A stretch of DNA of 64,000 nt from Oscheius dolichura. Taxonomy: Eukaryota; Nematoda; Chromadorea; Rhabditida; Rhabditidae. The stretch lies in contig OW051492.1 of the NCBI GenBank assembly GCA_932521035.1, positions 5,704,001-5,768,000 of the forward strand, read 5' to 3'. Position 1 is the first letter of the stretch. The number at the start of each line of letters is the position of its first letter. The notes below the pieces were generated by a model, which was not told where the DNA came from, ran no database searches, and saw only the letters and a program-made list of their open reading frames with translations. Below, in pieces: positions 1-62,235 of the stretch. A program made the translations under genes and the position numbers.

Positions 1-33
1 CTTAAAACAAATTTTACTTCCGTATTTCTATAC

Positions 34-251: not shown

Positions 252-265
252 TAACGAAATGTTGC

Positions 266-1006: not shown

Positions 1007-1026
1007 TTTGACCCCACTATGATTAC

Positions 1027-1048
1027 CTAAAAGATAAATATAGAAAAA
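1027..1048 (-). promoter_or_regulatory. Probable trans-splice acceptor before rpl-17
   Basis: On the minus strand a T-rich tract ends in tatctttttag-like sequence (AG at 1028-1027), 20 nt before the rpl-17 ATG, with no upstream exon apparent. This is the expected look of a spliced-leader acceptor, though a 5' UTR cis-intron would look the same. Confidence 0.45.
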
Positions 1049-1568: not shown

Positions 1569-1570
1569 GC

Positions 1571-1578
1571 TTTTTCAG
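1571..1578 (+). promoter_or_regulatory. Probable trans-splice acceptor of AP-3 sigma
   Basis: tttttcag ends two bases before the ATG of the AP-3 sigma gene. An acceptor this close to the start codon is typical of spliced-leader addition and supports the chosen start. Confidence 0.55.
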
Positions 1579-1580
1579 CC

Positions 1581-22200: not shown

Positions 22201-25200
22201 CGTGGCCAACCTGTCGACCCTCTTCAATGAACACCTGAAGGCACACCCCGAGGAAAAGGCACCCCAGCAGCTGACTGATGTCCAAGAGAAGCTGGAGAAT
22301 GTGTTGGCTGTGGTGGATTACAGGCTGAAGGAGACACGCTACACAGAAGAGGAGAAGGATCCACTGGACATAATCAACGAGACGGCCAACCTGGCTGCCG
22401 GCATCAAAGACGTTCCCAATTCTACCACCGGAGAACTTCAAGCCGCCAAGGACATGCTCGAGGCTGCCAAGAAAGACGTCGAGGATCTGCACTCGGTAAT
22501 CAAGGACAAGGAGGAGACCCACCCAGACCAAGTCAGTGAACCACTGAGGAAACTGAGCTCAGTGGAGGAGAATCTGGACAACGCCCTCGCCGCCGTTACT
22601 GGAAGACTGCAGGTGGAGAAAATGGACATGGTGGAGACCGAGGAGGCCAAGAAGAAGCTGGAGAATATCAGGAATACGGTGGACTTGGCCAGTGCCATCG
22701 ACGTCAATCCCACCGTCGCCTATGATGCACTGCAAGCTGCCAAAGACATGCTCGATGCAGCCGCAAAGGAGCTCGAAGAAGTGGAGACCACTGTCATTGA
22801 ACACCTAAAGCGACATCCCACCGACCTCCCCCTCCTGAACCAGCTCTCGTCAACCAAGCAGGACCTGAAGAATGTCTCGTCTGCGGTGGAGGAACATCTT
22901 GACGAAGTTGCCAAGAACGATGTCCTCCCCTCTACTTCGGCCACCTCGGATCTTCAAAATATCAGAGAGATCATCGACCTGGCCAGTGAGATTGAGGCAA
23001 CTCCCCAAGTTTCGAGAGACCAACTCCTGGCAGCCAAAGACATGCTGCAAACTGCCGAGAAAAGCATTGACAATCTCTTCGACACGGTGCAACAGCAACA
23101 CGACAACGTGGAAGATCTCCGCCAACTGGAAAATGTCGCTGAAGACTTGAAGAATGTCTTGACTGCAGTGGAAGACCGACTGGAAGAAGAGGGAGCCGTA
23201 GCGGATGGCATAAGGGATGGGACAGTGACCCCGGAACTGGACAAAATCCAACAGACGATTGACCTCGCCACCGGGATTGAGGCTATTCCTGTCTCGACCC
23301 AAGAAGATCTACAGGCTGCCCATGACATGCTGGAGACAGCCAAGAGGACTATTGACAGACTGCACTCGGAAACGGAGGAAGAGACGAGGACTGGGCCGGA
23401 AAGGAGAGATCAACTCAGGAAAATCAGTGGAGTTGAAGTGGAGCTGGACACCATACTCCATACATTAGACGAGCGACTGGCACATGACGCCTCGGCTCTG
23501 GGAATTCCAGAAGAAACCAACAAAAGCCAATTGTCAGACGTGGAAAAGGTCATCGACGCCGTTTTGGAGAAGACACCCGCTGAAGATCAGACCCCGGAGA
23601 AGCTGAGGGCTATCAAAGAAAGACTGGACAGTGCAAGGACATCTCTGGACGAGATCGCCGAACACACTCAACCGGCCGATGTGCAGAATGCTCAGGAAAA
23701 ACTACATCAGGCACAAGAATTGCTGGAGGAACAGCTCCAACAAGCGAAGAAGAAGGAAGAGCTGGAGAAGAAGGTGGAGGAGATCAGGAAGATCGTCGAC
23801 ACCGCCAGCGAAATAGAGGCATCACCCGAGCCAACAACTGCAGAACTGCAGAAAGCACACGATGATCTGGGACAGGCAAGGAAAAAGATGGAGGATATCA
23901 TAGAGACACACTTGAAGGAACACCCGGAAGGAGGGACGGACCTGGACAAGCTGTGTGAAGTGGAGCAGGACATCAACAATGTGCTGGCTGCCATTGACGA
24001 CAAGCTGGACCAGGGACACGAGCAGCCGGATGGAACGGTCGCCGACAACATCCTCCCTCTCCTAAACCAAGTCCAACAGGCTGCTGACGAGGCGGACAAG
24101 GAGGTCAACAGCGGAAACAGCACTGTTCAATCCATCAAGGACGCCCTCGACAAGATCGACCACCAAGGACAAAACAGAGACGAACTGCATCAGAAACTGG
24201 AAGGAGTGGACCCGGCAGACTTCAGGAATGAATCATTGAAAGACGCTGAAGAACGAATGGACAAGGCCAAAACAGCACTGGAGCAGAGACACTCGACACT
24301 CCAAGCATTCAACGACGTGGTCGATGCCCTCTTACCGGAACTTGATGAGCATGCTAATGCGACACAAAAACTGAAGAAGAAAAAGAAGCTCACACCGGCA
24401 AAGAAACAAGAGATCGCAAAGAACCTGGTACCAGCAGTGAACGAAATTGGCCGACTGGAGGATCTAGTAAGGACAAGCATTCCATTCACGGAACCCGTCC
24501 AGAAAATCCAAAACATCAAAAAGAAACTAGAGCAAATCACAGATTTAATACAACCAGTCGAAGTGCCAACACAACAAGAGACGACAACAGCCGCCCAAGA
24601 GCCATACTATGTGATTCCGGAAGAGATCGTCGGGCTCGAAGAAGACAAACAGCAGAAGAAACAAGAGGAAGCCAAGGTCGCGGTCGCGGTCGCGGAGAAG
24701 CTCACCCAGCTGCAAGAACTGCCTCTGGAACAACTCCCTGAAGAACAACTACAACAGTTGGACAACGAAATTGGACAGCTGAAGGATGCTGATCAGCTAC
24801 GAGAAAAGGTGGCTGCTCTCCAGAAAGCTAAAGAAGATCAGAAACATGCTCTGGATGAAGCCAACAAGAAGCTGCAAGAGATTGAACATGAAATTGCCGA
24901 TCTCGTTCCCATCCCAGCTGCTGCTCCATCAGGAAAAGGCAAAAAAGGCAAAGGAAAGAAACAACAGCCTGCTACTGCTGAAGAAGATGCTGCTACTCTA
25001 GCTGATCGTCTTCATAAGGCCAACGAATTATCCGATCGTCTGCTGGCTCTAACACCCATTCCTGATGCGGCTCGAGTTGATGAGGCTCGCAAGAAGATCG
25101 ATGACATTACTGACAAGACCAAATCCGATCTTGAGAAGAAGACAGCCGAAGAAGCCGAAGTCAAGAAGGCCACCGATGCTCTTGATGAGTTGGAGAAGAC

Positions 25201-28200
25201 CCTTGCCGCCGTCGAATCGAACATTCTGGCTGCACCAACTGATGATCTGGAGAAGCTGACCGCTCTCAAGAGGGACTCAATTCCTACTGTTGCTGGCAAA
25301 CTTGAAGCCGTTGGAGATGTACCTGCTGATCTGAAGGATCGTAAAGATCACTTGGCCCAGAAGTGCGCCGATGTCAACAAGGTACTTGATGAGAAGCTAC
25401 AGAAGGCTTTGGATGACCAAGAGAAGACCAATGTCGTCAGTGGCATACTGGATGACAAGAAGAAACAACTGGATACCATTGCCGAGAAGCTGCAATCTGA
25501 ACAACCATTGGCTGATGTTGACAACGAGCTACAGCAACTGAAACAGATCACTGATGAAATCAATCATTTGGCTGATCAACTTGAGAATGCTCCACAACAA
25601 CTTGCCCGTGCTGCTAATGACATCAAGCAAAAGGCTAAGGAGCTCGCTTCACCGCTTGAAAAGGCCGTTCCCAAAGAGAAGGAGCTACGAGATGACAACA
25701 AGAACCTCAAGGACCAACTGGAGAACATCTCTGCTGCTCTCAATCAGATCCATGACCACGCTCCTGAGACTCAACTGCCAGTTGTTGAACAAATTGTTCA
25801 TGACCTTGCTAAGCTACAGGATGCCGTGAAACAGCATGAGGACGCCGTTGAACATCATAGCCCTCTTGTTTCGGATTCTGATTTGGACAAGAATTTGGCT
25901 CAAAATCTGCCTGAATTGCTGAGAAAAGCTGAAGAAGAGAAGAAGACTCTGAATGAAGCTGTCCAAGTGAACACCATTGCTCCTGAAATCAAACTCATCA
26001 GTGCCGAACTCCAACAGCGACCAGAGCAAATTCCCGAAAATCTGGATGAACAACAAGCTGCTCTGGAGGATCTTGGAGCCAGAAAGGCCCGACTTGAAGC
26101 TCTGATGCAAAACATCCCTGAAGGAGCACAAGGAGATGAACTTCGTGAGAAGAGTCAATGGGATCTATCTCGTCTGAAGGACCTTCTGAACCAGCTGGGA
26201 GCCAAGGTTGGTGACAAGCTAGCTGCTCTGGCTGCGTTCAATACCAGCCGCAAGGATGCCGAAGAGAATCTTCTGGCTATTACCTCAAGACCTGAAACTG
26301 GCAAAACGCCTGAAGAAGTCATCGAACAGCTCAAACGAGATGAAGACGCTCTGGAAAAACTACGTCTATCAGTTGCTAACACCGACAGAGATGCCCTCGA
26401 TGAGCCTCAGGCTAAAGAGTACGATGATCTGATTGCCCGACTACAGAAAGCTGAAGAATTGCTAAAGGTTTGTTATTGTCTCTATTTGATCCATAATAAT
26501 TGTCATTTTTCAGCAACGTCGCGCAGCTGCCGAAGATGTACTTGACAAGCAGAAGGCCATTGAAGACTTGCATAAGAAGACCGTTCCTGCACAGTCACGC
26601 CTGGCCAAATTGATCGCAGAAGCTGACAGTCTACTAAATGATCCTGAAGGAGTTCCATCACAATATCAACCACTTGGAGATGAACTTCGCAAAGAGATCT
26701 CTATTGCCCAGGATATCGTTAGTGGACCAATTCCTGTTGCTGATGACGAGACTCTACGCTCTCTGGAGAATGCCATCAAGGCTGCTGAAGATCTGGTACC
26801 AATTCTATGGGACAGAGCTGCCTATTGGGAAGAATTCGTCACAGCTCGAAATGAGACAGATGCTGAATTGGAAAGACTGCGCCAGCCATTGGAGGACGTA
26901 CTGAACAAGCCTCGAAGAAATGTCAACGAAGCTGAGAACGATCTTCGTAATCTAACTGCTGCCAAAGGCACCTCGGACATTCTGGCTGATAAGATTCGCA
27001 ATCTGCAACGGCTCTCTGAACTACTTCATCCATTGGAGAACGCTTATGCTGATGTACGCTTCTATGATGTGGACGCCGAACAGACAGAAAAGCAGTATGA
27101 TGACATTCTCAACGAGCTGGCTGCCGAAATTGATGATGACAAGGTTCTTCACGATTCTGCCAACCACGTCAAACAGGAGCTTGCCGATCTACAGCAGATG
27201 CTTGGTCAGCCTTTGAGCAAGGATTCAATTGCTAACATTGAACAACATCAATTACCTGCTCTCAAGGCTCAAGTGCAAATGTTGAAGGAGAGAAATGACA
27301 ATGCCAGAGATGGACGCAAGCACGTGGCTCCGGATTCAGATCTACTAACTGGAGTCGAAGATGATCTTGCTAGAATGGATGCTCTCCTTGCTGATGCCAA
27401 GCAGAATGCCGATCAAATGGAAAATGATGAGATGCTGATGATTGTGACGATGAAGCTCACCCAGCTGCAAGAACTGCCTCTGGAACAACTCTCTGAAGAA
27501 CAACTACAACAGTTGGACAACGAAATTGGACAGCTGAAGGATGCTGATCAGCTACGAGAAAAGGTGGCTGCTCTCCAGAAAGCTAAAGAAGATCAGAAAC
27601 ATGCTCTGGATGAAGCCAACAAGAAGCTGCAAGAGATTGAACATGAAATTGCCGATCTCGTTCCCATCCCAGCTGCTGCTCCATCAGGAAAAGGCAAAAA
27701 AGGCAAAGGAAAGAAACAACAGCCTGCTACTGCTGAAGAAGATGCTGCTACTCTAGCTGATCGTCTTCATAAGGCCAACGAATTATCCGATCGTCTGCTG
27801 GCTCTAACACCCATTCCTGATGCGGCTCGAGTTGATGAGGCTCGCAAGAAGATCGATGACATTACTGACAAGACCAAATCCGATCTTGAGAAGAAGACAG
27901 CCGAAGAAGCCGAAGTCAAGAAGGCCACCGATGCTCTTGATGAGTTGGAGAAGACCCTTGCCGCCGTCGAATCGAACATTCTGGCTGCACCAACTGATGA
28001 TCTGGAGAAGCTGACCGCTCTCAAGAGGGACTCAATTCCTACTGTTGCTGGCAAACTTGAAGCCGTTGGAGATGTACCTGCTGATCTGAAGGATCGTAAA
28101 GATCACTTGGCCCAGAAGTGCGCCGATGTCAACAAGGTACTTGATGAGAAGCTACAGAAGGCTTTGGATGACCAAGAGAAGACCAATGTCGTCAGTGGCA

Positions 28201-31200
28201 TACTGGATGACAAGAAGAAACAACTGGATACCATTGCCGAGAAGCTGCAATCTGAACAACCATTGGCTGATGTTGACAACGAGCTACAGCAACTGAAACA
28301 GATCACTGATGAAATCAATCATTTGGCTGATCAACTTGAGAATGCTCCACAACAACTTGCCCGTGCTGCTAATGACATCAAGCAAAAGGCTAAGGAGCTC
28401 GCTTCACCGCTTGAAAAGGCCGTTCCCAAAGAGAAGGAGCTACGAGATGACAACAAGAACCTCAAGGACCAACTGGAGAACATCTCTGCTGCTCTCAATC
28501 AGATCCATGACCACGCTCCTGAGACTCAACTGCCAGTTGTTGAACAAATTGTTCATGACCTTGCTAAGCTACAGGATGCCGTGAAACAGCATGAGGACGC
28601 CGTTGAACATCATAGCCCTCTTGTTTCGGATTCTGATTTGGACAAGAATTTGGCTCAAAATCTGCCTGAATTGCTGAGAAAAGCTGAAGAAGAGAAGAAG
28701 ACTCTGAATGAAGCTGTCCAAGTGAACACCATTGCTCCTGAAATCAAACTCATCAGTGCCGAACTCCAACAGCGACCAGAGCAAATTCCCGAAAATCTGG
28801 ATGAACAACAAGCTGCTCTGGAGGATCTTGGAGCCAGAAAGGCCCGACTTGAAGCTCTGATGCAAAACATCCCTGAAGGAGCACAAGGAGATGAACTTCG
28901 TGAGAAGAGTCAATGGGATCTATCTCGTCTGAAGGACCTTCTGAACCAGCTGGGAGCCAAGGTTGGTGACAAGCTAGCTGCTCTGGCTGCGTTCAATACC
29001 AGCCGCAAGGATGCCGAAGAGAATCTTCTGGCTATTACCTCAAGACCTGAAACTGGCAAAACGCCTGAAGAAGTCATCGAACAGCTCAAACGAGATGAAG
29101 ACGCTCTGGAAAAACTACGTCTATCAGTTGCTAACACCGACAGAGATGCCCTCGATGAGCCTCAGGCTAAAGAGTACGATGATCTGATTGCCCGACTACA
29201 GAAAGCTGAAGAATTGCTAAAGGTTTGTTATTGTCTCTATTTGATCCATAATAATTGTCATTTTTCAGCAACGTCGCGCAGCTGCCGAAGATGTACTTGA
29301 CAAGCAGAAGGCCATTGAAGACTTGCATAAGAAGACCGTTCCTGCACAGTCACGCCTGGCCAAATTGATCGCAGAAGCTGACAGTCTACTAAATGATCCT
29401 GAAGGAGTTCCATCACAATATCAACCACTTGGAGATGAACTTCGCAAAGAGATCTCTATTGCCCAGGATATCGTTAGTGGACCAATTCCTGTTGCTGATG
29501 ACGAGACTCTACGCTCTCTGGAGAATGCCATCAAGGCTGCTGAAGATCTGGTACCAATTCTATGGGACAGAGCTGCCTATTGGGAAGAATTCGTCACAGC
29601 TCGAAATGAGACAGATGCTGAATTGGAAAGACTGCGCCAGCCATTGGAGGACGTACTGAACAAGCCTCGAAGAAATGTCAACGAAGCTGAGAACGATCTT
29701 CGTAATCTAACTGCTGCCAAAGGCACCTCGGACATTCTGGCTGATAAGATTCGCAATCTGCAACGGCTCTCTGAACTACTTCATCCATTGGAGAACGCTT
29801 ATGCTGATGTACGCTTCTATGATGTGGACGCCGAACAGACAGAAAAGCAGTATGATGACATTCTCAACGAGCTGGCTGCCGAAATTGATGATGACAAGGT
29901 TCTTCACGATTCTGCCAACCACGTCAAACAGGAGCTTGCCGATCTACAGCAGATGCTTGGTCAGCCTTTGAGCAAGGATTCAATTGCTAACATTGAACAA
30001 CATCAATTACCTGCTCTCAAGGCTCAAGTGCAAATGTTGAAGGAGAGAAATGACAATGCCAGAGATGGACGCAAGCACGTGGCTCCGGATTCAGATCTAC
30101 TAACTGGAGTCGAAGATGATCTTGCTAGAATGGATGCTCTCCTTGCTGATGCCAAGCAGAATGCCGATCAAATGGAAAATGATGAGATGCTGATGATTGT
30201 GACGATGAAGCTCACCCAGCTGCAAGAACTGCCTCTGGAACAACTCTCTGAAGAACAACTACAACAGTTGGACAACGAAATTGGACAGCTGAAGGATGCT
30301 GATCAGCTACGAGAAAAGGTGGCTGCTCTCCAGAAAGCTAAAGAAGATCAGAAACATGCTCTGGATGAAGCCAACAAGAAGCTGCAAGAGATTGAACATG
30401 AAATTGCCGATCTCGTTCCCATCCCAGCTGCTGCTCCATCAGGAAAAGGCAAAAAAGGCAAAGGAAAGAAACAACAGCCTGCTACTGCTGAAGAAGATGC
30501 TGCTACTCTAGCTGATCGTCTTCATAAGGCCAACGAATTATCCGATCGTCTGCTGGCTCTAACACCCATTCCTGATGCGGCTCGAGTTGATGAGGCTCGC
30601 AAGAAGATCGATGACATTACTGACAAGACCAAATCCGATCTTGAGAAGAAGACAGCCGAAGAAGCCGAAGTCAAGAAGGCCACCGATGCTCTTGATGAGT
30701 TGGAGAAGACCCTTGCCGCCGTCGAATCGAACATTCTGGCTGCACCAACTGATGATCTGGAGAAGCTGACCGCTCTCAAGAGGGACTCAATTCCTACTGT
30801 TGCTGGCAAACTTGAAGCCGTTGGAGATGTACCTGCTGATCTGAAGGATCGTAAAGATCACTTGGCCCAGAAGTGCGCCGATGTCAACAAGGTACTTGAT
30901 GAGAAGCTACAGAAGGCTTTGGATGACCAAGAGAAGACCAATGTCGTCAGTGGCATACTGGATGACAAGAAGAAACAACTGGATACCATTGCCGAGAAGC
31001 TGCAATCTGAACAACCATTGGCTGATGTTGACAACGAGCTACAGCAACTGAAACAGATCACTGATGAAATCAATCATTTGGCTGATCAACTTGAGAATGC
31101 TCCACAACAACTTGCCCGTGCTGCTAATGACATCAAGCAAAAGGCTAAGGAGCTCGCTTCACCGCTTGAAAAGGCCGTTCCCAAAGAGAAGGAGCTACGA

Positions 31201-34200
31201 GATGACAACAAGAACCTCAAGGACCAACTGGAGAACATCTCTGCTGCTCTCAATCAGATCCATGACCACGCTCCTGAGACTCAACTGCCAGTTGTTGAAC
31301 AAATTGTTCATGACCTTGCTAAGCTACAGGATGCCGTGAAACAGCATGAGGACGCCGTTGAACATCATAGCCCTCTTGTTTCGGATTCTGATTTGGACAA
31401 GAATTTGGCTCAAAATCTGCCTGAATTGCTGAGAAAAGCTGAAGAAGAGAAGAAGACTCTGAATGAAGCTGTCCAAGTGAACACCATTGCTCCTGAAATC
31501 AAACTCATCAGTGCCGAACTCCAACAGCGACCAGAGCAAATTCCCGAAAATCTGGATGAACAACAAGCTGCTCTGGAGGATCTTGGAGCCAGAAAGGCCC
31601 GACTTGAAGCTCTGATGCAAAACATCCCTGAAGGAGCACAAGGAGATGAACTTCGTGAGAAGAGTCAATGGGATCTATCTCGTCTGAAGGACCTTCTGAA
31701 CCAGCTGGGAGCCAAGGTTGGTGACAAGCTAGCTGCTCTGGCTGCGTTCAATACCAGCCGCAAGGATGCCGAAGAGAATCTTCTGGCTATTACCTCAAGA
31801 CCTGAAACTGGCAAAACGCCTGAAGAAGTCATCGAACAGCTCAAACGAGATGAAGACGCTCTGGAAAAACTACGTCTATCAGTTGCTAACACCGACAGAG
31901 ATGCCCTCGATGAGCCTCAGGCTAAAGAGTACGATGATCTGATTGCCCGACTACAGAAAGCTGAAGAATTGCTAAAGGTTTGTTATTGTCTCTATTTGAT
32001 CCATAATAATTGTCATTTTTCAGCAACGTCGCGCAGCTGCCGAAGATGTACTTGACAAGCAGAAGGCCATTGAAGACTTGCATAAGAAGACCGTTCCTGC
32101 ACAGTCACGCCTGGCCAAATTGATCGCAGAAGCTGACAGTCTACTAAATGATCCTGAAGGAGTTCCATCACAATATCAACCACTTGGAGATGAACTTCGC
32201 AAAGAGATCTCTATTGCCCAGGATATCGTTAGTGGACCAATTCCTGTTGCTGATGACGAGACTCTACGCTCTCTGGAGAATGCCATCAAGGCTGCTGAAG
32301 ATCTGGTACCAATTCTATGGGACAGAGCTGCCTATTGGGAAGAATTCGTCACAGCTCGAAATGAGACAGATGCTGAATTGGAAAGACTGCGCCAGCCATT
32401 GGAGGACGTACTGAACAAGCCTCGAAGAAATGTCAACGAAGCTGAGAACGATCTTCGTAATCTAACTGCTGCCAAAGGCACCTCGGACATTCTGGCTGAT
32501 AAGATTCGCAATCTGCAACGGCTCTCTGAACTACTTCATCCATTGGAGAACGCTTATGCTGATGTACGCTTCTATGATGTGGACGCCGAACAGACAGAAA
32601 AGCAGTATGATGACATTCTCAACGAGCTGGCTGCCGAAATTGATGATGACAAGGTTCTTCACGATTCTGCCAACCACGTCAAACAGGAGCTTGCCGATCT
32701 ACAGCAGATGCTTGGTCAGCCTTTGAGCAAGGATTCAATTGCTAACATTGAACAACATCAATTACCTGCTCTCAAGGCTCAAGTGCAAATGTTGAAGGAG
32801 AGAAATGACAATGCCAGAGATGGACGCAAGCACGTGGCTCCGGATTCAGATCTACTAACTGGAGTCGAAGATGATCTTGCTAGAATGGATGCTCTCCTTG
32901 CTGATGCCAAGCAGAATGCCGATCAAATGGAAAATGATGAGATGCTGATGATTGTGACGATGAAGCTCACCCAGCTGCAAGAACTGCCTCTGGAACAACT
33001 CTCTGAAGAACAACTACAACAGTTGGACAACGAAATTGGACAGCTGAAGGATGCTGATCAGCTACGAGAAAAGGTGGCTGCTCTCCAGAAAGCTAAAGAA
33101 GATCAGAAACATGCTCTGGATGAAGCCAACAAGAAGCTGCAAGAGATTGAACATGAAATTGCCGATCTCGTTCCCATCCCAGCTGCTGCTCCATCAGGAA
33201 AAGGCAAAAAAGGCAAAGGAAAGAAACAACAGCCTGCTACTGCTGAAGAAGATGCTGCTACTCTAGCTGATCGTCTTCATAAGGCCAACGAATTATCCGA
33301 TCGTCTGCTGGCTCTAACACCCATTCCTGATGCGGCTCGAGTTGATGAGGCTCGCAAGAAGATCGATGACATTACTGACAAGACCAAATCCGATCTTGAG
33401 AAGAAGACAGCCGAAGAAGCCGAAGTCAAGAAGGCCACCGATGCTCTTGATGAGTTGGAGAAGACCCTTGCCGCCGTCGAATCGAACATTCTGGCTGCAC
33501 CAACTGATGATCTGGAGAAGCTGACCGCTCTCAAGAGGGACTCAATTCCTACTGTTGCTGGCAAACTTGAAGCCGTTGGAGATGTACCTGCTGATCTGAA
33601 GGATCGTAAAGATCACTTGGCCCAGAAGTGCGCCGATGTCAACAAGGTACTTGATGAGAAGCTACAGAAGGCTTTGGATGACCAAGAGAAGACCAATGTC
33701 GTCAGTGGCATACTGGATGACAAGAAGAAACAACTGGATACCATTGCCGAGAAGCTGCAATCTGAACAACCATTGGCTGATGTTGACAACGAGCTACAGC
33801 AACTGAAACAGATCACTGATGAAATCAATCATTTGGCTGATCAACTTGAGAATGCTCCACAACAACTTGCCCGTGCTGCTAATGACATCAAGCAAAAGGC
33901 TAAGGAGCTCGCTTCACCGCTTGAAAAGGCCGTTCCCAAAGAGAAGGAGCTACGAGATGACAACAAGAACCTCAAGGACCAACTGGAGAACATCTCTGCT
34001 GCTCTCAATCAGATCCATGACCACGCTCCTGAGACTCAACTGCCAGTTGTTGAACAAATTGTTCATGACCTTGCTAAGCTACAGGATGCCGTGAAACAGC
34101 ATGAGGACGCCGTTGAACATCATAGCCCTCTTGTTTCGGATTCTGATTTGGACAAGAATTTGGCTCAAAATCTGCCTGAATTGCTGAGAAAAGCTGAAGA

Positions 34201-37200: not shown

Positions 37201-40200
37201 ACCTTCTGAACCAGCTGGGAGCCAAGGTTGGTGACAAGCTAGCTGCTCTGGCTGCGTTCAATACCAGCCGCAAGGATGCCGAAGAGAATCTTCTGGCTAT
37301 TACCTCAAGACCTGAAACTGGCAAAACGCCTGAAGAAGTCATCGAACAGCTCAAACGAGATGAAGACGCTCTGGAAAAACTACGTCTATCAGTTGCTAAC
37401 ACCGACAGAGATGCCCTCGATGAGCCTCAGGCTAAAGAGTACGATGATCTGATTGCCCGACTACAGAAAGCTGAAGAATTGCTAAAGGTTTGTTATTGTC
37501 TCTATTTGATCCATAATAATTGTCATTTTTCAGCAACGTCGCGCAGCTGCCGAAGATGTACTTGACAAGCAGAAGGCCATTGAAGACTTGCATAAGAAGA
37601 CCGTTCCTGCACAGTCACGCCTGGCCAAATTGATCGCAGAAGCTGACAGTCTACTAAATGATCCTGAAGGAGTTCCATCACAATATCAACCACTTGGAGA
37701 TGAACTTCGCAAAGAGATCTCTATTGCCCAGGATATCGTTAGTGGACCAATTCCTGTTGCTGATGACGAGACTCTACGCTCTCTGGAGAATGCCATCAAG
37801 GCTGCTGAAGATCTGGTACCAATTCTATGGGACAGAGCTGCCTATTGGGAAGAATTCGTCACAGCTCGAAATGAGACAGATGCTGAATTGGAAAGACTGC
37901 GCCAGCCATTGGAGGACGTACTGAACAAGCCTCGAAGAAATGTCAACGAAGCTGAGAACGATCTTCGTAATCTAACTGCTGCCAAAGGCACCTCGGACAT
38001 TCTGGCTGATAAGATTCGCAATCTGCAACGGCTCTCTGAACTACTTCATCCATTGGAGAACGCTTATGCTGATGTACGCTTCTATGATGTGGACGCCGAA
38101 CAGACAGAAAAGCAGTATGATGACATTCTCAACGAGCTGGCTGCCGAAATTGATGATGACAAGGTTCTTCACGATTCTGCCAACCACGTCAAACAGGAGC
38201 TTGCCGATCTACAGCAGATGCTTGGTCAGCCTTTGAGCAAGGATTCAATTGCTAACATTGAACAACATCAATTACCTGCTCTCAAGGCTCAAGTGCAAAT
38301 GTTGAAGGAGAGAAATGACAATGCCAGAGATGGACGCAAGCACGTGGCTCCGGATTCAGATCTACTAACTGGAGTCGAAGATGATCTTGCTAGAATGGAT
38401 GCTCTCCTTGCTGATGCCAAGCAGAATGCCGATCAAATGGAAAATGATGAGATGCTGATGATTGTGACGATGAAGCTCACCCAGCTGCAAGAACTGCCTC
38501 TGGAACAACTCTCTGAAGAACAACTACAACAGTTGGACAACGAAATTGGACAGCTGAAGGATGCTGATCAGCTACGAGAAAAGGTGGCTGCTCTCCAGAA
38601 AGCTAAAGAAGATCAGAAACATGCTCTGGATGAAGCCAACAAGAAGCTGCAAGAGATTGAACATGAAATTGCCGATCTCGTTCCCATCCCAGCTGCTGCT
38701 CCATCAGGAAAAGGCAAAAAAGGCAAAGGAAAGAAACAACAGCCTGCTACTGCTGAAGAAGATGCTGCTACTCTAGCTGATCGTCTTCATAAGGCCAACG
38801 AATTATCCGATCGTCTGCTGGCTCTAACACCCATTCCTGATGCGGCTCGAGTTGATGAGGCTCGCAAGAAGATCGATGACATTACTGACAAGACCAAATC
38901 CGATCTTGAGAAGAAGACAGCCGAAGAAGCCGAAGTCAAGAAGGCCACCGATGCTCTTGATGAGTTGGAGAAGACCCTTGCCGCCGTCGAATCGAACATT
39001 CTGGCTGCACCAACTGATGATCTGGAGAAGCTGACCGCTCTCAAGAGGGACTCAATTCCTACTGTTGCTGGCAAACTTGAAGCCGTTGGAGATGTACCTG
39101 CTGATCTGAAGGATCGTAAAGATCACTTGGCCCAGAAGTGCGCCGATGTCAACAAGGTACTTGATGAGAAGCTACAGAAGGCTTTGGATGACCAAGAGAA
39201 GACCAATGTCGTCAGTGGCATACTGGATGACAAGAAGAAACAACTGGATACCATTGCCGAGAAGCTGCAATCTGAACAACCATTGGCTGATGTTGACAAC
39301 GAGCTACAGCAACTGAAACAGATCACTGATGAAATCAATCATTTGGCTGATCAACTTGAGAATGCTCCACAACAACTTGCCCGTGCTGCTAATGACATCA
39401 AGCAAAAGGCTAAGGAGCTCGCTTCACCGCTTGAAAAGGCCGTTCCCAAAGAGAAGGAGCTACGAGATGACAACAAGAACCTCAAGGACCAATTGGAGAA
39501 CATCTCTGCTGCTCTCAATCAGATCCATGACCACGCTCCTGAGACTCAACTGCCAGTTGTTGAACAAATTGTTCATGACCTTGCTAAGCTACAGGATGCC
39601 GTGAAACAGCATGAGGACGCCGTTGAACATCATAGCCCTCTTGTTTCGGATTCTGATTTGGACAAGAATTTGGCTCAAAATCTGCCTGAATTGCTGAGAA
39701 AAGCTGAAGAAGAGAAGAAGACTCTGAATGAAGCTGTCCAAGTGAACACCATTGCTCCTGAAATCAAACTCATCAGTGCCGAACTCCAACAGCGACCAGA
39801 GCAAATTCCCGAAAATCTGGATGAACAACAAGCTGCTCTGGAGGATCTTGGAGCCAGAAAGGCCCGACTTGAAGCTCTGATGCAAAACATCCCTGAAGGA
39901 GCACAAGGAGATGAACTTCGTGAGAAGAGTCAATGGGATCTATCTCGTCTGAAGGACCTTCTGAACCAGCTGGGAGCCAAGGTTGGTGACAAGCTAGCTG
40001 CTCTGGCTGCGTTCAATACCAGCCGCAAGGATGCCGAAGAGAATCTTCTGGCTATTACCTCAAGACCTGAAACTGGCAAAACGCCTGAAGAAGTCATCGA
40101 ACAGCTCAAACGAGATGAAGACGCTCTGGAAAAACTACGTCTATCAGTTGCTAACACCGACAGAGATGCCCTCGATGAGCCTCAGGCTAAAGAGTACGAT

Positions 40201-43200: not shown

Positions 43201-46200
43201 CACTTGGAGATGAACTTCGCAAAGAGATCTCTATTGCCCAGGATATCGTTAGTGGACCAATTCCTGTTGCTGATGACGAGACTCTACGCTCTCTGGAGAA
43301 TGCCATCAAGGCTGCTGAAGATCTGGTACCAATTCTATGGGACAGAGCTGCCTATTGGGAAGAATTCGTCACAGCTCGAAATGAGACAGATGCTGAATTG
43401 GAAAGACTGCGCCAGCCATTGGAGGACGTACTGAACAAGCCTCGAAGAAATGTCAACGAAGCTGAGAACGATCTTCGTAATCTAACTGCTGCCAAAGGCA
43501 CCTCGGACATTCTGGCTGATAAGATTCGCAATCTGCAACGGCTCTCTGAACTACTTCATCCATTGGAGAACGCTTATGCTGATGTACGCTTCTATGATGT
43601 GGACGCCGAACAGACAGAAAAGCAGTATGATGACATTCTCAACGAGCTGGCTGCCGAAATTGATGATGACAAGGTTCTTCACGATTCTGCCAACCACGTC
43701 AAACAGGAGCTTGCCGATCTACAGCAGATGCTTGGTCAGCCTTTGAGCAAGGATTCAATTGCTAACATTGAACAACATCAATTACCTGCTCTCAAGGCTC
43801 AAGTGCAAATGTTGAAGGAGAGAAATGACAATGCCAGAGATGGACGCAAGCACGTGGCTCCGGATTCAGATCTACTAACTGGAGTCGAAGATGATCTTGC
43901 TAGAATGGATGCTCTCCTTGCTGATGCCAAGCAGAATGCCGATCAAATGGAAAATGATGAGATGCTGATGATTGTGACGATGAAGCTCACCCAGCTGCAA
44001 GAACTGCCTCTGGAACAACTCTCTGAAGAACAACTACAACAGTTGGACAACGAAATTGGACAGCTGAAGGATGCTGATCAGCTACGAGAAAAGGTGGCTG
44101 CTCTCCAGAAAGCTAAAGAAGATCAGAAACATGCTCTGGATGAAGCCAACAAGAAGCTGCAAGAGATTGAACATGAAATTGCCGATCTCGTTCCCATCCC
44201 AGCTGCTGCTCCATCAGGAAAAGGCAAAAAAGGCAAAGGAAAGAAACAACAGCCTGCTACTGCTGAAGAAGATGCTGCTACTCTAGCTGATCGTCTTCAT
44301 AAGGCCAACGAATTATCCGATCGTCTGCTGGCTCTAACACCCATTCCTGATGCGGCTCGAGTTGATGAGGCTCGCAAGAAGATCGATGACATTACTGACA
44401 AGACCAAATCCGATCTTGAGAAGAAGACAGCCGAAGAAGCCGAAGTCAAGAAGGCCACCGATGCTCTTGATGAGTTGGAGAAGACCCTTGCCGCCGTCGA
44501 ATCGAACATTCTGGCTGCACCAACTGATGATCTGGAGAAGCTGACCGCTCTCAAGAGGGACTCAATTCCTACTGTTGCTGGCAAACTTGAAGCCGTTGGA
44601 GATGTACCTGCTGATCTGAAGGATCGTAAAGATCACTTGGCCCAGAAGTGCGCCGATGTCAACAAGGTACTTGATGAGAAGCTACAGAAGGCTTTGGATG
44701 ACCAAGAGAAGACCAATGTCGTCAGTGGCATACTGGATGACAAGAAGAAACAACTGGATACCATTGCCGAGAAGCTGCAATCTGAACAACCATTGGCTGA
44801 TGTTGACAACGAGCTACAGCAACTGAAACAGATCACTGATGAAATCAATCATTTGGCTGATCAACTTGAGAATGCTCCACAACAACTTGCCCGTGCTGCT
44901 AATGACATCAAGCAAAAGGCTAAGGAGCTCGCTTCACCGCTTGAAAAGGCCGTTCCCAAAGAGAAGGAGCTACGAGATGACAACAAGAACCTCAAGGACC
45001 AACTGGAGAACATCTCTGCTGCTCTCAATCAGATCCATGACCACGCTCCTGAGACTCAACTGCCAGTTGTTGAACAAATTGTTCATGACCTTGCTAAGCT
45101 ACAGGATGCCGTGAAACAGCATGAGGACGCCGTTGAACATCATAGCCCTCTTGTTTCGGATTCTGATTTGGACAAGAATTTGGCTCAAAATCTGCCTGAA
45201 TTGCTGAGAAAAGCTGAAGAAGAGAAGAAGACTCTGAATGAAGCTGTCCAAGTGAACACCATTGCTCCTGAAATCAAACTCATCAGTGCCGAACTCCAAC
45301 AGCGACCAGAGCAAATTCCCGAAAATCTGGATGAACAACAAGCTGCTCTGGAGGATCTTGGAGCCAGAAAGGCCCGACTTGAAGCTCTGATGCAAAACAT
45401 CCCTGAAGGAGCACAAGGAGATGAACTTCGTGAGAAGAGTCAATGGGATCTATCTCGTCTGAAGGACCTTCTGAACCAGCTGGGAGCCAAGGTTGGTGAC
45501 AAGCTAGCTGCTCTGGCTGCGTTCAATACCAGCCGCAAGGATGCCGAAGAGAATCTTCTGGCTATTACCTCAAGACCTGAAACTGGCAAAACGCCTGAAG
45601 AAGTCATCGAACAGCTCAAACGAGATGAAGACGCTCTGGAAAAACTACGTCTATCAGTTGCTAACACCGACAGAGATGCCCTCGATGAGCCTCAGGCTAA
45701 AGAGTACGATGATCTGATTGCCCGACTACAGAAAGCTGAAGAATTGCTAAAGGTTTGTTATTGTCTCTATTTGATCCATAATAATTGTCATTTTTCAGCA
45801 ACGTCGCGCAGCTGCCGAAGATGTACTTGACAAGCAGAAGGCCATTGAAGACTTGCATAAGAAGACCGTTCCTGCACAGTCACGCCTGGCCAAATTGATC
45901 GCAGAAGCTGACAGTCTACTAAATGATCCTGAAGGAGTTCCATCACAATATCAACCACTTGGAGATGAACTTCGCAAAGAGATCTCTATTGCCCAGGATA
46001 TCGTTAGTGGACCAATTCCTGTTGCTGATGACGAGACTCTACGCTCTCTGGAGAATGCCATCAAGGCTGCTGAAGATCTGGTACCAATTCTATGGGACAG
46101 AGCTGCCTATTGGGAAGAATTCGTCACAGCTCGAAATGAGACAGATGCTGAATTGGAAAGACTGCGCCAGCCATTGGAGGACGTACTGAACAAGCCTCGA

Positions 46201-49200
46201 AGAAATGTCAACGAAGCTGAGAACGATCTTCGTAATCTAACTGCTGCCAAAGGCACCTCGGACATTCTGGCTGATAAGATTCGCAATCTGCAACGGCTCT
46301 CTGAACTACTTCATCCATTGGAGAACGCTTATGCTGATGTACGCTTCTATGATGTGGACGCCGAACAGACAGAAAAGCAGTATGATGACATTCTCAACGA
46401 GCTGGCTGCCGAAATTGATGATGACAAGGTTCTTCACGATTCTGCCAACCACGTCAAACAGGAGCTTGCCGATCTACAGCAGATGCTTGGTCAGCCTTTG
46501 AGCAAGGATTCAATTGCTAACATTGAACAACATCAATTACCTGCTCTCAAGGCTCAAGTGCAAATGTTGAAGGAGAGAAATGACAATGCCAGAGATGGAC
46601 GCAAGCACGTGGCTCCGGATTCAGATCTACTAACTGGAGTCGAAGATGATCTTGCTAGAATGGATGCTCTCCTTGCTGATGCCAAGCAGAATGCCGATCA
46701 AATGGAAAATGATGAGATGCTGATGATTGTGACGATGAAGCTCACCCAGCTGCAAGAACTGCCTCTGGAACAACTCTCTGAAGAACAACTACAACAGTTG
46801 GACAACGAAATTGGACAGCTGAAGGATGCTGATCAGCTACGAGAAAAGGTGGCTGCTCTCCAGAAAGCTAAAGAAGATCAGAAACATGCTCTGGATGAAG
46901 CCAACAAGAAGCTGCAAGAGATTGAACATGAAATTGCCGATCTCGTTCCCATCCCAGCTGCTGCTCCATCAGGAAAAGGCAAAAAAGGCAAAGGAAAGAA
47001 ACAACAGCCTGCTACTGCTGAAGAAGATGCTGCTACTCTAGCTGATCGTCTTCATAAGGCCAACGAATTATCCGATCGTCTGCTGGCTCTAACACCCATT
47101 CCTGATGCGGCTCGAGTTGATGAGGCTCGCAAGAAGATCGATGACATTACTGACAAGACCAAATCCGATCTTGAGAAGAAGACAGCCGAAGAAGCCGAAG
47201 TCAAGAAGGCCACCGATGCTCTTGATGAGTTGGAGAAGACCCTTGCCGCCGTCGAATCGAACATTCTGGCTGCACCAACTGATGATCTGGAGAAGCTGAC
47301 CGCTCTCAAGAGGGACTCAATTCCTACTGTTGCTGGCAAACTTGAAGCCGTTGGAGATGTACCTGCTGATCTGAAGGATCGTAAAGATCACTTGGCCCAG
47401 AAGTGCGCCGATGTCAACAAGGTACTTGATGAGAAGCTACAGAAGGCTTTGGATGACCAAGAGAAGACCAATGTCGTCAGTGGCATACTGGATGACAAGA
47501 AGAAACAACTGGATACCATTGCCGAGAAGCTGCAATCTGAACAACCATTGGCTGATGTTGACAACGAGCTACAGCAACTGAAACAGATCACTGATGAAAT
47601 CAATCATTTGGCTGATCAACTTGAGAATGCTCCACAACAACTTGCCCGTGCTGCTAATGACATCAAGCAAAAGGCTAAGGAGCTCGCTTCACCGCTTGAA
47701 AAGGCCGTTCCCAAAGAGAAGGAGCTACGAGATGACAACAAGAACCTCAAGGACCAACTGGAGAACATCTCTGCTGCTCTCAATCAGATCCATGACCACG
47801 CTCCTGAGACTCAACTGCCAGTTGTTGAACAAATTGTTCATGACCTTGCTAAGCTACAGGATGCCGTGAAACAGCATGAGGACGCCGTTGAACATCATAG
47901 CCCTCTTGTTTCGGATTCTGATTTGGACAAGAATTTGGCTCAAAATCTGCCTGAATTGCTGAGAAAAGCTGAAGAAGAGAAGAAGACTCTGAATGAAGCT
48001 GTCCAAGTGAACACCATTGCTCCTGAAATCAAACTCATCAGTGCCGAACTCCAACAGCGACCAGAGCAAATTCCCGAAAATCTGGATGAACAACAAGCTG
48101 CTCTGGAGGATCTTGGAGCCAGAAAGGCCCGACTTGAAGCTCTGATGCAAAACATCCCTGAAGGAGCACAAGGAGATGAACTTCGTGAGAAGAGTCAATG
48201 GGATCTATCTCGTCTGAAGGACCTTCTGAACCAGCTGGGAGCCAAGGTTGGTGACAAGCTAGCTGCTCTGGCTGCGTTCAATACCAGCCGCAAGGATGCC
48301 GAAGAGAATCTTCTGGCTATTACCTCAAGACCTGAAACTGGCAAAACGCCTGAAGAAGTCATCGAACAGCTCAAACGAGATGAAGACGCTCTGGAAAAAC
48401 TACGTCTATCAGTTGCTAACACCGACAGAGATGCCCTCGATGAGCCTCAGGCTAAAGAGTACGATGATCTGATTGCCCGACTACAGAAAGCTGAAGAATT
48501 GCTAAAGGTTTGTTATTGTCTCTATTTGATCCATAATAATTGTCATTTTTCAGCAACGTCGCGCAGCTGCCGAAGATGTACTTGACAAGCAGAAGGCCAT
48601 TGAAGACTTGCATAAGAAGACCGTTCCTGCACAGTCACGCCTGGCCAAATTGATCGCAGAAGCTGACAGTCTACTAAATGATCCTGAAGGAGTTCCATCA
48701 CAATATCAACCACTTGGAGATGAACTTCGCAAAGAGATCTCTATTGCCCAGGATATCGTTAGTGGACCAATTCCTGTTGCTGATGACGAGACTCTACGCT
48801 CTCTGGAGAATGCCATCAAGGCTGCTGAAGATCTGGTACCAATTCTATGGGACAGAGCTGCCTATTGGGAAGAATTCGTCACAGCTCGAAATGAGACAGA
48901 TGCTGAATTGGAAAGACTGCGCCAGCCATTGGAGGACGTACTGAACAAGCCTCGAAGAAATGTCAACGAAGCTGAGAACGATCTTCGTAATCTAACTGCT
49001 GCCAAAGGCACCTCGGACATTCTGGCTGATAAGATTCGCAATCTGCAACGGCTCTCTGAACTACTTCATCCATTGGAGAACGCTTATGCTGATGTACGCT
49101 TCTATGATGTGGACGCCGAACAGACAGAAAAGCAGTATGATGACATTCTCAACGAGCTGGCTGCCGAAATTGATGATGACAAGGTTCTTCACGATTCTGC

Positions 49201-52200
49201 CAACCACGTCAAACAGGAGCTTGCCGATCTACAGCAGATGCTTGGTCAGCCTTTGAGCAAGGATTCAATTGCTAACATTGAACAACATCAATTACCTGCT
49301 CTCAAGGCTCAAGTGCAAATGTTGAAGGAGAGAAATGACAATGCCAGAGATGGACGCAAGCACGTGGCTCCGGATTCAGATCTACTAACTGGAGTCGAAG
49401 ATGATCTTGCTAGAATGGATGCTCTCCTTGCTGATGCCAAGCAGAATGCCGATCAAATGGAAAATGATGAGATGCTGATGATTGTGACGATGAAGCTCAC
49501 CCAGCTGCAAGAACTGCCTCTGGAACAACTCTCTGAAGAACAACTACAACAGTTGGACAACGAAATTGGACAGCTGAAGGATGCTGATCAGCTACGAGAA
49601 AAGGTGGCTGCTCTCCAGAAAGCTAAAGAAGATCAGAAACATGCTCTGGATGAAGCCAACAAGAAGCTGCAAGAGATTGAACATGAAATTGCCGATCTCG
49701 TTCCCATCCCAGCTGCTGCTCCATCAGGAAAAGGCAAAAAAGGCAAAGGAAAGAAACAACAGCCTGCTACTGCTGAAGAAGATGCTGCTACTCTAGCTGA
49801 TCGTCTTCATAAGGCCAACGAATTATCCGATCGTCTGCTGGCTCTAACACCCATTCCTGATGCGGCTCGAGTTGATGAGGCTCGCAAGAAGATCGATGAC
49901 ATTACTGACAAGACCAAATCCGATCTTGAGAAGAAGACAGCCGAAGAAGCCGAAGTCAAGAAGGCCACCGATGCTCTTGATGAGTTGGAGAAGACCCTTG
50001 CCGCCGTCGAATCGAACATTCTGGCTGCACCAACTGATGATCTGGAGAAGCTGACCGCTCTCAAGAGGGACTCAATTCCTACTGTTGCTGGCAAACTTGA
50101 AGCCGTTGGAGATGTACCTGCTGATCTGAAGGATCGTAAAGATCACTTGGCCCAGAAGTGCGCCGATGTCAACAAGGTACTTGATGAGAAGCTACAGAAG
50201 GCTTTGGATGACCAAGAGAAGACCAATGTCGTCAGTGGCATACTGGATGACAAGAAGAAACAACTGGATACCATTGCCGAGAAGCTGCAATCTGAACAAC
50301 CATTGGCTGATGTTGACAACGAGCTACAGCAACTGAAACAGATCACTGATGAAATCAATCATTTGGCTGATCAACTTGAGAATGCTCCACAACAACTTGC
50401 CCGTGCTGCTAATGACATCAAGCAAAAGGCTAAGGAGCTCGCTTCACCGCTTGAAAAGGCCGTTCCCAAAGAGAAGGAGCTACGAGATGACAACAAGAAC
50501 CTCAAGGACCAACTGGAGAACATCTCTGCTGCTCTCAATCAGATCCATGACCACGCTCCTGAGACTCAACTGCCAGTTGTTGAACAAATTGTTCATGACC
50601 TTGCTAAGCTACAGGATGCCGTGAAACAGCATGAGGACGCCGTTGAACATCATAGCCCTCTTGTTTCGGATTCTGATTTGGACAAGAATTTGGCTCAAAA
50701 TCTGCCTGAATTGCTGAGAAAAGCTGAAGAAGAGAAGAAGACTCTGAATGAAGCTGTCCAAGTGAACACCATTGCTCCTGAAATCAAACTCATCAGTGCC
50801 GAACTCCAACAGCGACCAGAGCAAATTCCCGAAAATCTGGATGAACAACAAGCTGCTCTGGAGGATCTTGGAGCCAGAAAGGCCCGACTTGAAGCTCTGA
50901 TGCAAAACATCCCTGAAGGAGCACAAGGAGATGAACTTCGTGAGAAGAGTCAATGGGATCTATCTCGTCTGAAGGACCTTCTGAACCAGCTGGGAGCCAA
51001 GGTTGGTGACAAGCTAGCTGCTCTGGCTGCGTTCAATACCAGCCGCAAGGATGCCGAAGAGAATCTTCTGGCTATTACCTCAAGACCTGAAACTGGCAAA
51101 ACGCCTGAAGAAGTCATCGAACAGCTCAAACGAGATGAAGACGCTCTGGAAAAACTACGTCTATCAGTTGCTAACACCGACAGAGATGCCCTCGATGAGC
51201 CTCAGGCTAAAGAGTACGATGATCTGATTGCCCGACTACAGAAAGCTGAAGAATTGCTAAAGGTTTGTTATTGTCTCTATTTGATCCATAATAATTGTCA
51301 TTTTTCAGCAACGTCGCGCAGCTGCCGAAGATGTACTTGACAAGCAGAAGGCCATTGAAGACTTGCATAAGAAGACCGTTCCTGCACAGTCACGCCTGGC
51401 CAAATTGATCGCAGAAGCTGACAGTCTACTAAATGATCCTGAAGGAGTTCCATCACAATATCAACCACTTGGAGATGAACTTCGCAAAGAGATCTCTATT
51501 GCCCAGGATATCGTTAGTGGACCAATTCCTGTTGCTGATGACGAGACTCTACGCTCTCTGGAGAATGCCATCAAGGCTGCTGAAGATCTGGTACCAATTC
51601 TATGGGACAGAGCTGCCTATTGGGAAGAATTCGTCACAGCTCGAAATGAGACAGATGCTGAATTGGAAAGACTGCGCCAGCCATTGGAGGACGTACTGAA
51701 CAAGCCTCGAAGAAATGTCAACGAAGCTGAGAACGATCTTCGTAATCTAACTGCTGCCAAAGGCACCTCGGACATTCTGGCTGATAAGATTCGCAATCTG
51801 CAACGGCTCTCTGAACTACTTCATCCATTGGAGAACGCTTATGCTGATGTACGCTTCTATGATGTGGACGCCGAACAGACAGAAAAGCAGTATGATGACA
51901 TTCTCAACGAGCTGGCTGCCGAAATTGATGATGACAAGGTTCTTCACGATTCTGCCAACCACGTCAAACAGGAGCTTGCCGATCTACAGCAGATGCTTGG
52001 TCAGCCTTTGAGCAAGGATTCAATTGCTAACATTGAACAACATCAATTACCTGCTCTCAAGGCTCAAGTGCAAATGTTGAAGGAGAGAAATGACAATGCC
52101 AGAGATGGACGCAAGCACGTGGCTCCGGATTCAGATCTACTAACTGGAGTCGAAGATGATCTTGCTAGAATGGATGCTCTCCTTGCTGATGCCAAGCAGA

Positions 52201-55200
52201 ATGCCGATCAAATGGAAAATGATGAGATGCTGATGATTGTGACGATGAAGCTCACCCAGCTGCAAGAACTGCCTCTGGAACAACTCTCTGAAGAACAACT
52301 ACAACAGTTGGACAACGAAATTGGACAGCTGAAGGATGCTGATCAGCTACGAGAAAAGGTGGCTGCTCTCCAGAAAGCTAAAGAAGATCAGAAACATGCT
52401 CTGGATGAAGCCAACAAGAAGCTGCAAGAGATTGAACATGAAATTGCCGATCTCGTTCCCATCCCAGCTGCTGCTCCATCAGGAAAAGGCAAAAAAGGCA
52501 AAGGAAAGAAACAACAGCCTGCTACTGCTGAAGAAGATGCTGCTACTCTAGCTGATCGTCTTCATAAGGCCAACGAATTATCCGATCGTCTGCTGGCTCT
52601 AACACCCATTCCTGATGCGGCTCGAGTTGATGAGGCTCGCAAGAAGATCGATGACATTACTGACAAGACCAAATCCGATCTTGAGAAGAAGACAGCCGAA
52701 GAAGCCGAAGTCAAGAAGGCCACCGATGCTCTTGATGAGTTGGAGAAGACCCTTGCCGCCGTCGAATCGAACATTCTGGCTGCACCAACTGATGATCTGG
52801 AGAAGCTGACCGCTCTCAAGAGGGACTCAATTCCTACTGTTGCTGGCAAACTTGAAGCCGTTGGAGATGTACCTGCTGATCTGAAGGATCGTAAAGATCA
52901 CTTGGCCCAGAAGTGCGCCGATGTCAACAAGGTACTTGATGAGAAGCTACAGAAGGCTTTGGATGACCAAGAGAAGACCAATGTCGTCAGTGGCATACTG
53001 GATGACAAGAAGAAACAACTGGATACCATTGCCGAGAAGCTGCAATCTGAACAACCATTGGCTGATGTTGACAACGAGCTACAGCAACTGAAACAGATCA
53101 CTGATGAAATCAATCATTTGGCTGATCAACTTGAGAATGCTCCACAACAACTTGCCCGTGCTGCTAATGACATCAAGCAAAAGGCTAAGGAGCTCGCTTC
53201 ACCGCTTGAAAAGGCCGTTCCCAAAGAGAAGGAGCTACGAGATGACAACAAGAACCTCAAGGACCAACTGGAGAACATCTCTGCTGCTCTCAATCAGATC
53301 CATGACCACGCTCCTGAGACTCAACTGCCAGTTGTTGAACAAATTGTTCATGACCTTGCTAAGCTACAGGATGCCGTGAAACAGCATGAGGACGCCGTTG
53401 AACATCATAGCCCTCTTGTTTCGGATTCTGATTTGGACAAGAATTTGGCTCAAAATCTGCCTGAATTGCTGAGAAAAGCTGAAGAAGAGAAGAAGACTCT
53501 GAATGAAGCTGTCCAAGTGAACACCATTGCTCCTGAAATCAAACTCATCAGTGCCGAACTCCAACAGCGACCAGAGCAAATTCCCGAAAATCTGGATGAA
53601 CAACAAGCTGCTCTGGAGGATCTTGGAGCCAGAAAGGCCCGACTTGAAGCTCTGATGCAAAACATCCCTGAAGGAGCACAAGGAGATGAACTTCGTGAGA
53701 AGAGTCAATGGGATCTATCTCGTCTGAAGGACCTTCTGAACCAGCTGGGAGCCAAGGTTGGTGACAAGCTAGCTGCTCTGGCTGCGTTCAATACCAGCCG
53801 CAAGGATGCCGAAGAGAATCTTCTGGCTATTACCTCAAGACCTGAAACTGGCAAAACGCCTGAAGAAGTCATCGAACAGCTCAAACGAGATGAAGACGCT
53901 CTGGAAAAACTACGTCTATCAGTTGCTAACACCGACAGAGATGCCCTCGATGAGCCTCAGGCTAAAGAGTACGATGATCTGATTGCCCGACTACAGAAAG
54001 CTGAAGAATTGCTAAAGGTTTGTTATTGTCTCTATTTGATCCATAATAATTGTCATTTTTCAGCAACGTCGCGCAGCTGCCGAAGATGTACTTGACAAGC
54101 AGAAGGCCATTGAAGACTTGCATAAGAAGACCGTTCCTGCACAGTCACGCCTGGCCAAATTGATCGCAGAAGCTGACAGTCTACTAAATGATCCTGAAGG
54201 AGTTCCATCACAATATCAACCACTTGGAGATGAACTTCGCAAAGAGATCTCTATTGCCCAGGATATCATCGCCGCTCCTGGAGGAGTGTCGGCTACCGAG
54301 GACGAAACTCTGCGTGGTTTGAGCCATCTGCTAACTGCTGCCCATGTTCTCCTTCCGACAATTGAGTCGAAAGCAGAACTGTGGGAAGAGTTTTCGTGCC
54401 TTCGAGATGAAGGATTTGATTTGTTGGAAAAGATTAATCGCAGAATCCACGCCGTGGATCTTTCGACACTTGGAAGTGTCTCTGACAATCAGGAGCTATT
54501 AGATCAGCTAAAGGTATCCCGTTCAGGAATTTTGGTAATGCATCGGTTCCAGGCTGTTTACGACGACGTCGAAGAGCTCCGTGAGAAAGACCATCAACTC
54601 TGCGGACTCTCCGAAGATTTGCTTCCTCACAGTATTGCTGCTCAGGAATCGAGATTCTTTTCTGTTGATGTAGAGGGTACTAGTCAGCAGTATGAGGTAG
54701 GGCCTCTATTTTCCCCCGTAACTCTTCTTTTAGGAAACAATGCAACAATTGAATGATGAAATTGATACCGAGACCAACTTGGCGAGGACACTGGAGATAC
54801 TCCGGACGGAGTTGAACCACTGTTCCGAAGAACTAGAATCACAACAACGTTTCAGAAGAGACCGAATGGTATCCGCTCGATTTATAATGAATAATAAGTA
54901 TGTTCAGAGTCAGGAATCGTTGCTCAATGACATCATCGCCCACATCGAGAATCAGAAGGTGATCGTGGAGCGCAGTGCGGCCGGTCGTCGCTTCGTGGAA
55001 AGCAGCACATCCGCGGAGTTGGACGCCCTGTTGCAGAAGGCCCACGAACTGGTTGAACAGCTCCGGAACATCCCGGAGACGAGTGGCGAAGGCAACGAGG
55101 AAAACAAAGAAGAATATGATGTCGATGCCGCCGCCGAAGTGCTCGCCGCTCTCTATCCGAATGAACATCCGTATTCCGTGCTGCAACAACACGGAATCGA

Positions 55201-59500: not shown

Positions 59501-59956
59501 GAGAAGCCCGTAGAGAAAAGAGCAACGGAGACGAGACACGGCATTGCAAATGTTGTATCCGAGGTAAGCGGCTCGTCTCCATCCCAAACCATATTACAGC
59601 TAATGAACACTACTCATGGTGTTCCACAAGTTGCCACTTACACAACATTGGCTGATCCTCCAGTTGAAATTCCTCCGCCAGATCCGGCTCCGGGGCCCTC
59701 GTCGGAAGCTCCTCGTCCTCTTACAGCTACAGTCGTTGGTCGCCCAAAAACTAGGCGGTACTTGACTGCGATAGAAACTGAGAACATTTCGGTAAGAAAT
59801 CACTCTCAGAAAAAAAAGAAACATATACAGATCAAGAGAAAGGAAATACCTGCTGTACATTCTGGAACCGCACCGAATATGCCTCCGACGATCAGAGAAA
59901 TAGTCAGAAGAGCCGTGAAAACTTCATATGTTAGATCGGATACTAATCAAGATTAA
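56508..59956 (+). CDS. TRPV cation channel, OSM-9/OCR-like
   Basis: Twenty exons with introns of 36-76 nt, all in frame, encode 873 residues. The N-terminus (MGSKASKADSG) has no signal peptide. Ankyrin repeats fill about residues 60-330 (GQSALHLAIINNDYETAQLL, AYFGEYPLGFAACCGAKDLY, DTFGNTILHMCVI, NHDGFTPLTLASKLGRPQIF). S1 is MIILIIQLIFLSIAAGL (about 379); S2-S4 follow; the pore region is FEAFITLLRANLKGFDYEEL and S6 is AVMMMALVISMMANTF. After S6 come EKAWRQQTAQIIMNLERS and a long basic, Pro-rich tail. TRPV subunits form tetrameric cation channels in sensory cilia. The putative filter NLKGFD lacks the vertebrate GMGD motif. One intron (57975-58011) is GC-AG. Which nematode paralogue it is cannot be settled here. 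Confidence 0.88.
57975..58011 (+). other. GC-AG intron of the TRPV gene
   Basis: GCCAAG|gcaggc to gtttccag|TTCGGG, 37 nt, phase 0. It joins the end of the ankyrin region (YAK) to the segment before S1 (FGLYKRM). No GT donor is available and read-through gives a different, non-homologous frame. Confidence 0.7.
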
Positions 59957-60368
59957 AATTATTCCTTTTTTTTCTTTTCTTCTAATATGAGCCGTCCAAT
60001 TTAGCGAAGTATCGCAACTTCTACAGTACATGAAAAATCTGTGCAACACCCTCAAATTCCACAATTGGATCGATCCAGTCTATGTTATACTATTGTTTTG
60101 CCCCATATATTTTTTGTAATTGTTTTGAGATTCTTGAAATAACACCTCAATATGCCTGAAAAAGCGTTGGGGAGATTGAGCATTAGCTTATACAGGGTTT
60201 CTTCTGAAATGCAAGTTCGTAATTGAGGCGAAGAAAATTCGCATTCGGGCACTCTCGGCCGAGGCGCGGGTCCTAGTGCGTGGACATTTCCTCGTTGGAT
60301 TTTAGCTTGACTCTTCTGTTATAGTACATGGTTAGGTATATATATTTCAATAATTCTATATCTTGCAG
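59957..60368. other. Intergenic region between TRPV and EF-Tu
   Basis: About 410 nt, AT-rich, ending in the tatatcttgcag acceptor (60357-60368) that precedes the EF-Tu ATG by 18 nt. No gene or RNA recognised. Presumed promoter of the EF-Tu/COG5 pair. Confidence 0.5.
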
Positions 60369-60386
60369 AAACCTCGAAGAAAGTAA

Positions 60387-62073: not shown

Positions 62074-62212
62074 TTACTTTTTCTTCTCATTGAATAGGAT
62101 TATTTGTTTGTTGTTTATTTGTTTTAAATTGAATTGAATGATTTTTATTATCTGTCCACCTAATCGTATTCTCGAACAGAAAATACTTGCACTAATTTTT
62201 TGTTATACATAG

Positions 62213-62227
62213 TTCCAACTTTTCAAG
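62213..62227 (+). promoter_or_regulatory. Possible trans-splice acceptor of COG5
   Basis: ttccaacttttcaag ends eight bases before the COG5 ATG and 154 nt after the EF-Tu stop; a second candidate AG lies at 62211-62212. No clear AATAAA separates the two genes. Confidence 0.35.
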
Positions 62228-62235
62228 ATTAATAA

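Follow-up and report, generated by a model that had tools for sequence, protein, structure and literature searches.

A predicted ANC-1 orthologue with a near-identical array of 903-residue units in the nematode Oscheius dolichura

The giant protein ANC-1 serves to anchor nuclei as well as other organelles. The C. elegans protein is 8545 residues long, and contains six 903-residue repeats whose nucleotide sequences are almost 100% conserved, and an F2 region of 277 residues (PMC8139857). Deletion of five or six of these repeats leads to intermediate nuclear anchorage defects, and the protein lacking them shifts towards the nuclear envelope (PMC8139857). The locus described here shares a giant architecture of calponin homology (CH) domains, rod and KASH domain with Nesprin-1/2 giant (SYNE1/SYNE2) and with Drosophila MSP-300, the rods of which contain more than 50 spectrin-like repeats (PMC8139857), but are without identical 903-residue units. 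For nematodes other than C. elegans, we found no ANC-1 repeat numbers in the open-access literature searched.

Positions 24697..54267 of the window, that is, of the whole 64,000-nucleotide stretch of O. dolichura DNA that was analysed, form a tandem array in which the sequence recurs strictly every 2755 bp. This array, which like all other features of the gene given below lies on the forward strand, is 29,571 bp long and was delimited by lag identity and exact edges to 10.73 units. When the window was compared against a copy of itself shifted by 2755 bp, identity was ~100% inside the array and ~25%, the background level, everywhere else, while lags of 2754 and 2756 bp gave background identity only; a chance origin of the periodicity is excluded. 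Tandem Repeats Finder is blind to this array, as its maximum period is 500. Each unit consists of an open reading frame of 2709 bp (903 codons, with the frame kept from unit to unit) and a single 46-bp intron. One complete unit exon of 903 codons, in a stop-free frame, occupies 26514..29222, and nine more exons of 903 codons start every 2755 bp thereafter, at 29269, 32024, 34779, 37534, 40289, 43044, 45799, 48554 and 51309. The intron, which reads GTTTGT...TTTTCAG and therefore has GT..AG boundaries, was found by exact search at 11 places within the array, from 26468..26513 to 54018-54063, unchanged in every case.

Sequence variation within the array is confined to two columns, and there are no indels between copies. 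A column comparison identified a Pro/Ser variant at 24737, 40 bp in from the left edge, where copy 1 has C and the others have T, and a silent Leu CTG/TTG variant at 39493, where copy 6 alone has T and the others have C. Of the ~7000 silent or intron sites in the array, all but one are invariant. An earlier note on this DNA had reported a strict 2755-bp period over 29.6 kb, which the lag analysis bears out, and identical translations in every copy, which is correct except for the one residue that is Pro in copy 1 and Ser elsewhere. At the right edge (54267), identity drops from 100% to the diverged level at a single point, which marks the edge of the homogenised tract. The variant at 39493, the only internal copy-specific one, is no more than 11 bp away from the middle of the array, its distances to the two edges being 14,795 and 14,774 bp; this position may be due to chance, or may reflect a base that lets reads of at least 15 kb tie the flanks to the middle. 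The G+C content of third codon positions is 0.43 in the array, versus 0.64 and 0.58 in the flanking coding sequence on either side, the opposite of what G+C-biased gene conversion would be expected to produce.

The array is flanked by the terminal domains of a giant nesprin. Upstream, exons at 11066..13259 encode tandem CH domains (PF00307, E=2.6e-40, matching in two stretches of the modelled protein). An F1-like region, recognised by ORF and repeat searches, precedes the array at 20740..24696, and its long open exon, which begins at 21212, runs into the array. Between 20973 and 24000 we additionally noted degenerate tandem repeats of ~89-98 residues with a motif like AAKDMLEAAKKD, mostly spaced by 267-294 bp, for which no Pfam family scored above the cutoff. 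The unit itself scores above the cutoff for all three Pfam families of ANC-1 spectrin-like repeats (PF24611, 3.9e-41; PF24615, 2.1e-18; PF24531, 4.6e-07), with matches that are spread along its length and together cover ~300 of its 903 residues. A search of the PDB with the 903-residue unit returned no matches, and single-sequence AlphaFold2 predicted a fold that is nearly all helix, at low confidence (pLDDT 65.5, pTM 0.27). At the C-terminus, two exons (55415-55451 and 55529-55629, together spanning 55415..55629) encode a KASH domain (PF10541, E=6.7e-27) with a transmembrane span and a luminal tail that ends in GPPPF. This tail matches the KASH peptides of nesprin-1 (E=7.3e-09), nesprin-2 and nesprin-3 in the PDB. 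The predicted order in the protein is accordingly CH-CH, rod, about eleven 903-residue units, a short linker and KASH.

The last unit is complete, with a final quarter that has strongly diverged, as the portion of the unit missing from the array can be aligned with the protein sequence that follows position 54267. The alignment score is 176, compared with a maximum of 88 among shuffled sequences, with ~25% identity over 260 columns, and the region is recognised by PF24611 (E=1.9e-17). This diverged continuation, at 54268..54696, forms the start of an F2-like region, the remainder of which extends in an open frame up to the membrane span (54736..55372, with splice sites read directly). The 10.7 units proposed in the earlier note are therefore accurate for the exact array, and fall short as a description of the predicted protein, for which eleven units fits better. 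A diverged unit to the left of the array is not supported, given that the 300 residues before the array score 107 against the unit and the shuffle maximum is 123.

We identify the locus as an ANC-1 orthologue on the basis of its similarity to the Pfam unit families, the KASH and CH domains, and matches to C. elegans oligonucleotides. For this last comparison we used peptides from the anc-1 oligonucleotides printed in PMC8139857, which represent stretches of the protein rather than a full unit. Two peptides from the KASH side are identical to the O. dolichura sequence at 14/14 and 18/20 residues, and in both genes an intron follows ALPLQ and precedes the membrane span. The peptide from the C. 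elegans array end matches both the unit and the region directly after the array, with none of 300 shuffles as good, and in the same alignment the C. elegans array is taken to end ~30-40 residues beyond the end of the O. dolichura array. This single comparable array-end stretch has diverged in sequence, whereas KASH is well conserved. Those C. elegans peptides that derive from the start of its array gave no significant match here in a shuffle test, which also led us to discard a match of the left array edges of the two species made by eye.

In common with C. elegans ANC-1, the predicted protein thus has N-terminal CH-CH, C-terminal KASH, near-identical tandem repeats of 903 residues and a similar non-repeat length, and it differs in having ~11 assembled units against the six published (PMC8139857). 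The ANC-1 identity proposed in the earlier note, its count of six 903-residue repeats in C. elegans, and its view that unit length is equal while copy number nearly doubles are all in agreement with these data. Its protein length of ~13,080 residues is revised, as our gene model gives ~12,840 residues, a figure in which the N-terminal exons (2750 residues in total) are approximate, since they come from a model that used a basic splice-and-codon score and was guided towards inclusion of the CH exons. Non-repeat residues number ~3150 here and 3127 in C. elegans, indicating that the extra length of the predicted protein is almost all due to copy number. The equality at 903 residues is striking and may reflect a constraint on unit length, but could also partly be coincidence, since two of the three Pfam matches show small net length differences from their profiles (87 versus 90 and 98 versus 104 positions).

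Taken jointly, these data make it highly probable that the locus is an anc-1 orthologue of the form CH-rod-array-KASH, which would act in organelle anchoring in a C. elegans-like manner, and the array of which has either been homogenised or recently expanded. The presence of an ANC-1 orthologue with a near-identical 903-residue array, at a higher assembled copy number than in C. elegans, is well supported. Intron and silent sites show no more variation than the rest of the array, which indicates that the identity is maintained in the DNA itself or that expansion was very recent. The same observation runs contrary to the idea that purifying selection on the protein alone keeps the units identical, which we find scarcely credible even though normal function in C. 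elegans requires multiple repeats (PMC8139857). It is a realistic possibility, if short of likely, that the ancestor had fewer copies and that a few units were amplified very recently in this lineage, in the last 10^4 to 10^5 generations or so. At an assumed rate of 2.7e-9 mutations per site per generation, which yields orders of magnitude only, two variants in 29.6 kb correspond to ~25,000 generations, in keeping with such an amplification, and the one silent variant to ~50,000. However, the C. elegans array is likewise near-identical, with the same unit length, and its end, lying ~30-40 residues from the end here, suggests an old array that has been repeatedly homogenised. Recent amplification and long-term homogenisation can also act together.

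The copy number of ~11 is that of the assembly, and may be wrong. It is conceivable, though on balance rather unlikely, that gene and repeat are real and that the number of units is a product of assembly, through mis-traversal of a repeat loop or through polishing that erased differences between copies. Typical HiFi reads are shorter than the 29.6 kb of near-identical units in this array, only two variable columns are present, and the single internal marker, sitting at the midpoint, may reflect the joining of two flanks. That same marker would, however, let reads of at least 15 kb connect to both flanks, and the retention of a copy-specific base in copy 6 suggests that reads were placed there. 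The lack of indels between copies likewise argues against an assembly product, as does the tendency of assemblers to collapse near-identical arrays more often than they expand them.

Under the reading of a homogenised or recently expanded anc-1 array, and by analogy with C. elegans, ANC-1 would be held in the ER and the outer nuclear membrane by its membrane span and KASH tail, and the CH domains of a long isoform would bind actin. The helical rod would then serve as a long elastic spacer between membrane and cytoplasm, keeping nuclei and other organelles in place. The units would be kept near-identical by unequal crossing-over, gene conversion or both, or would owe their identity to a very recent expansion. 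Since the 2709 coding bp are a multiple of three and each unit carries its own intron, whole units can be gained or lost with both frame and splicing preserved, so that a homogenising process altering copy number by whole units would change protein length in steps of 903 residues. In this respect the array offers a clear case of concerted evolution in coding DNA. Eleven units, provided that the assembly has the count right, would give an ANC-1 repeat rod of almost double the length that six units give in C. elegans.

The near-identical array of C. elegans ANC-1 is thus not an oddity of a single species: in a nematode fairly distant from C. elegans, units of equal length occupy the corresponding place in the protein, in a different copy number. 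What sets the length of the rod in giant nesprins can accordingly be tested, both by comparison of species and by editing of whole units. A broader proposal, which we consider improbable as it stands, is that the 903-residue unit length is fixed across distant nematodes while the sequence turns over by concerted evolution, and that an evolvable copy number would tune rod length in whole-unit steps to the size of the cell or syncytium. Searches of contigs from prokaryote genomes and from viruses found nothing related to the unit.

The genes at the window ends include one for uL22 (RPL17), encoded on the minus strand, and one for an EF-Tu-like GTPase whose N terminus resembles a presequence. The best PDB match of the uL22 gene is 9bh5, the C. 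elegans ribosome, with identity at 76/98 residues (78%, counted by eye); this match indicates that the source species is very probably a nematode, though one not closely related to C. elegans. A C2H2 zinc-finger-like gene lies upstream of the locus, at 2-7 kb, and downstream, at 57142-59953, is a gene whose product has ankyrin repeats as well as hydrophobic segments and may be a TRP-type channel. The ends of the window (1-2000 and 60001-64000) have a G+C content of 0.36-0.43, compared with ~0.53 in the rest of the window outside the array.
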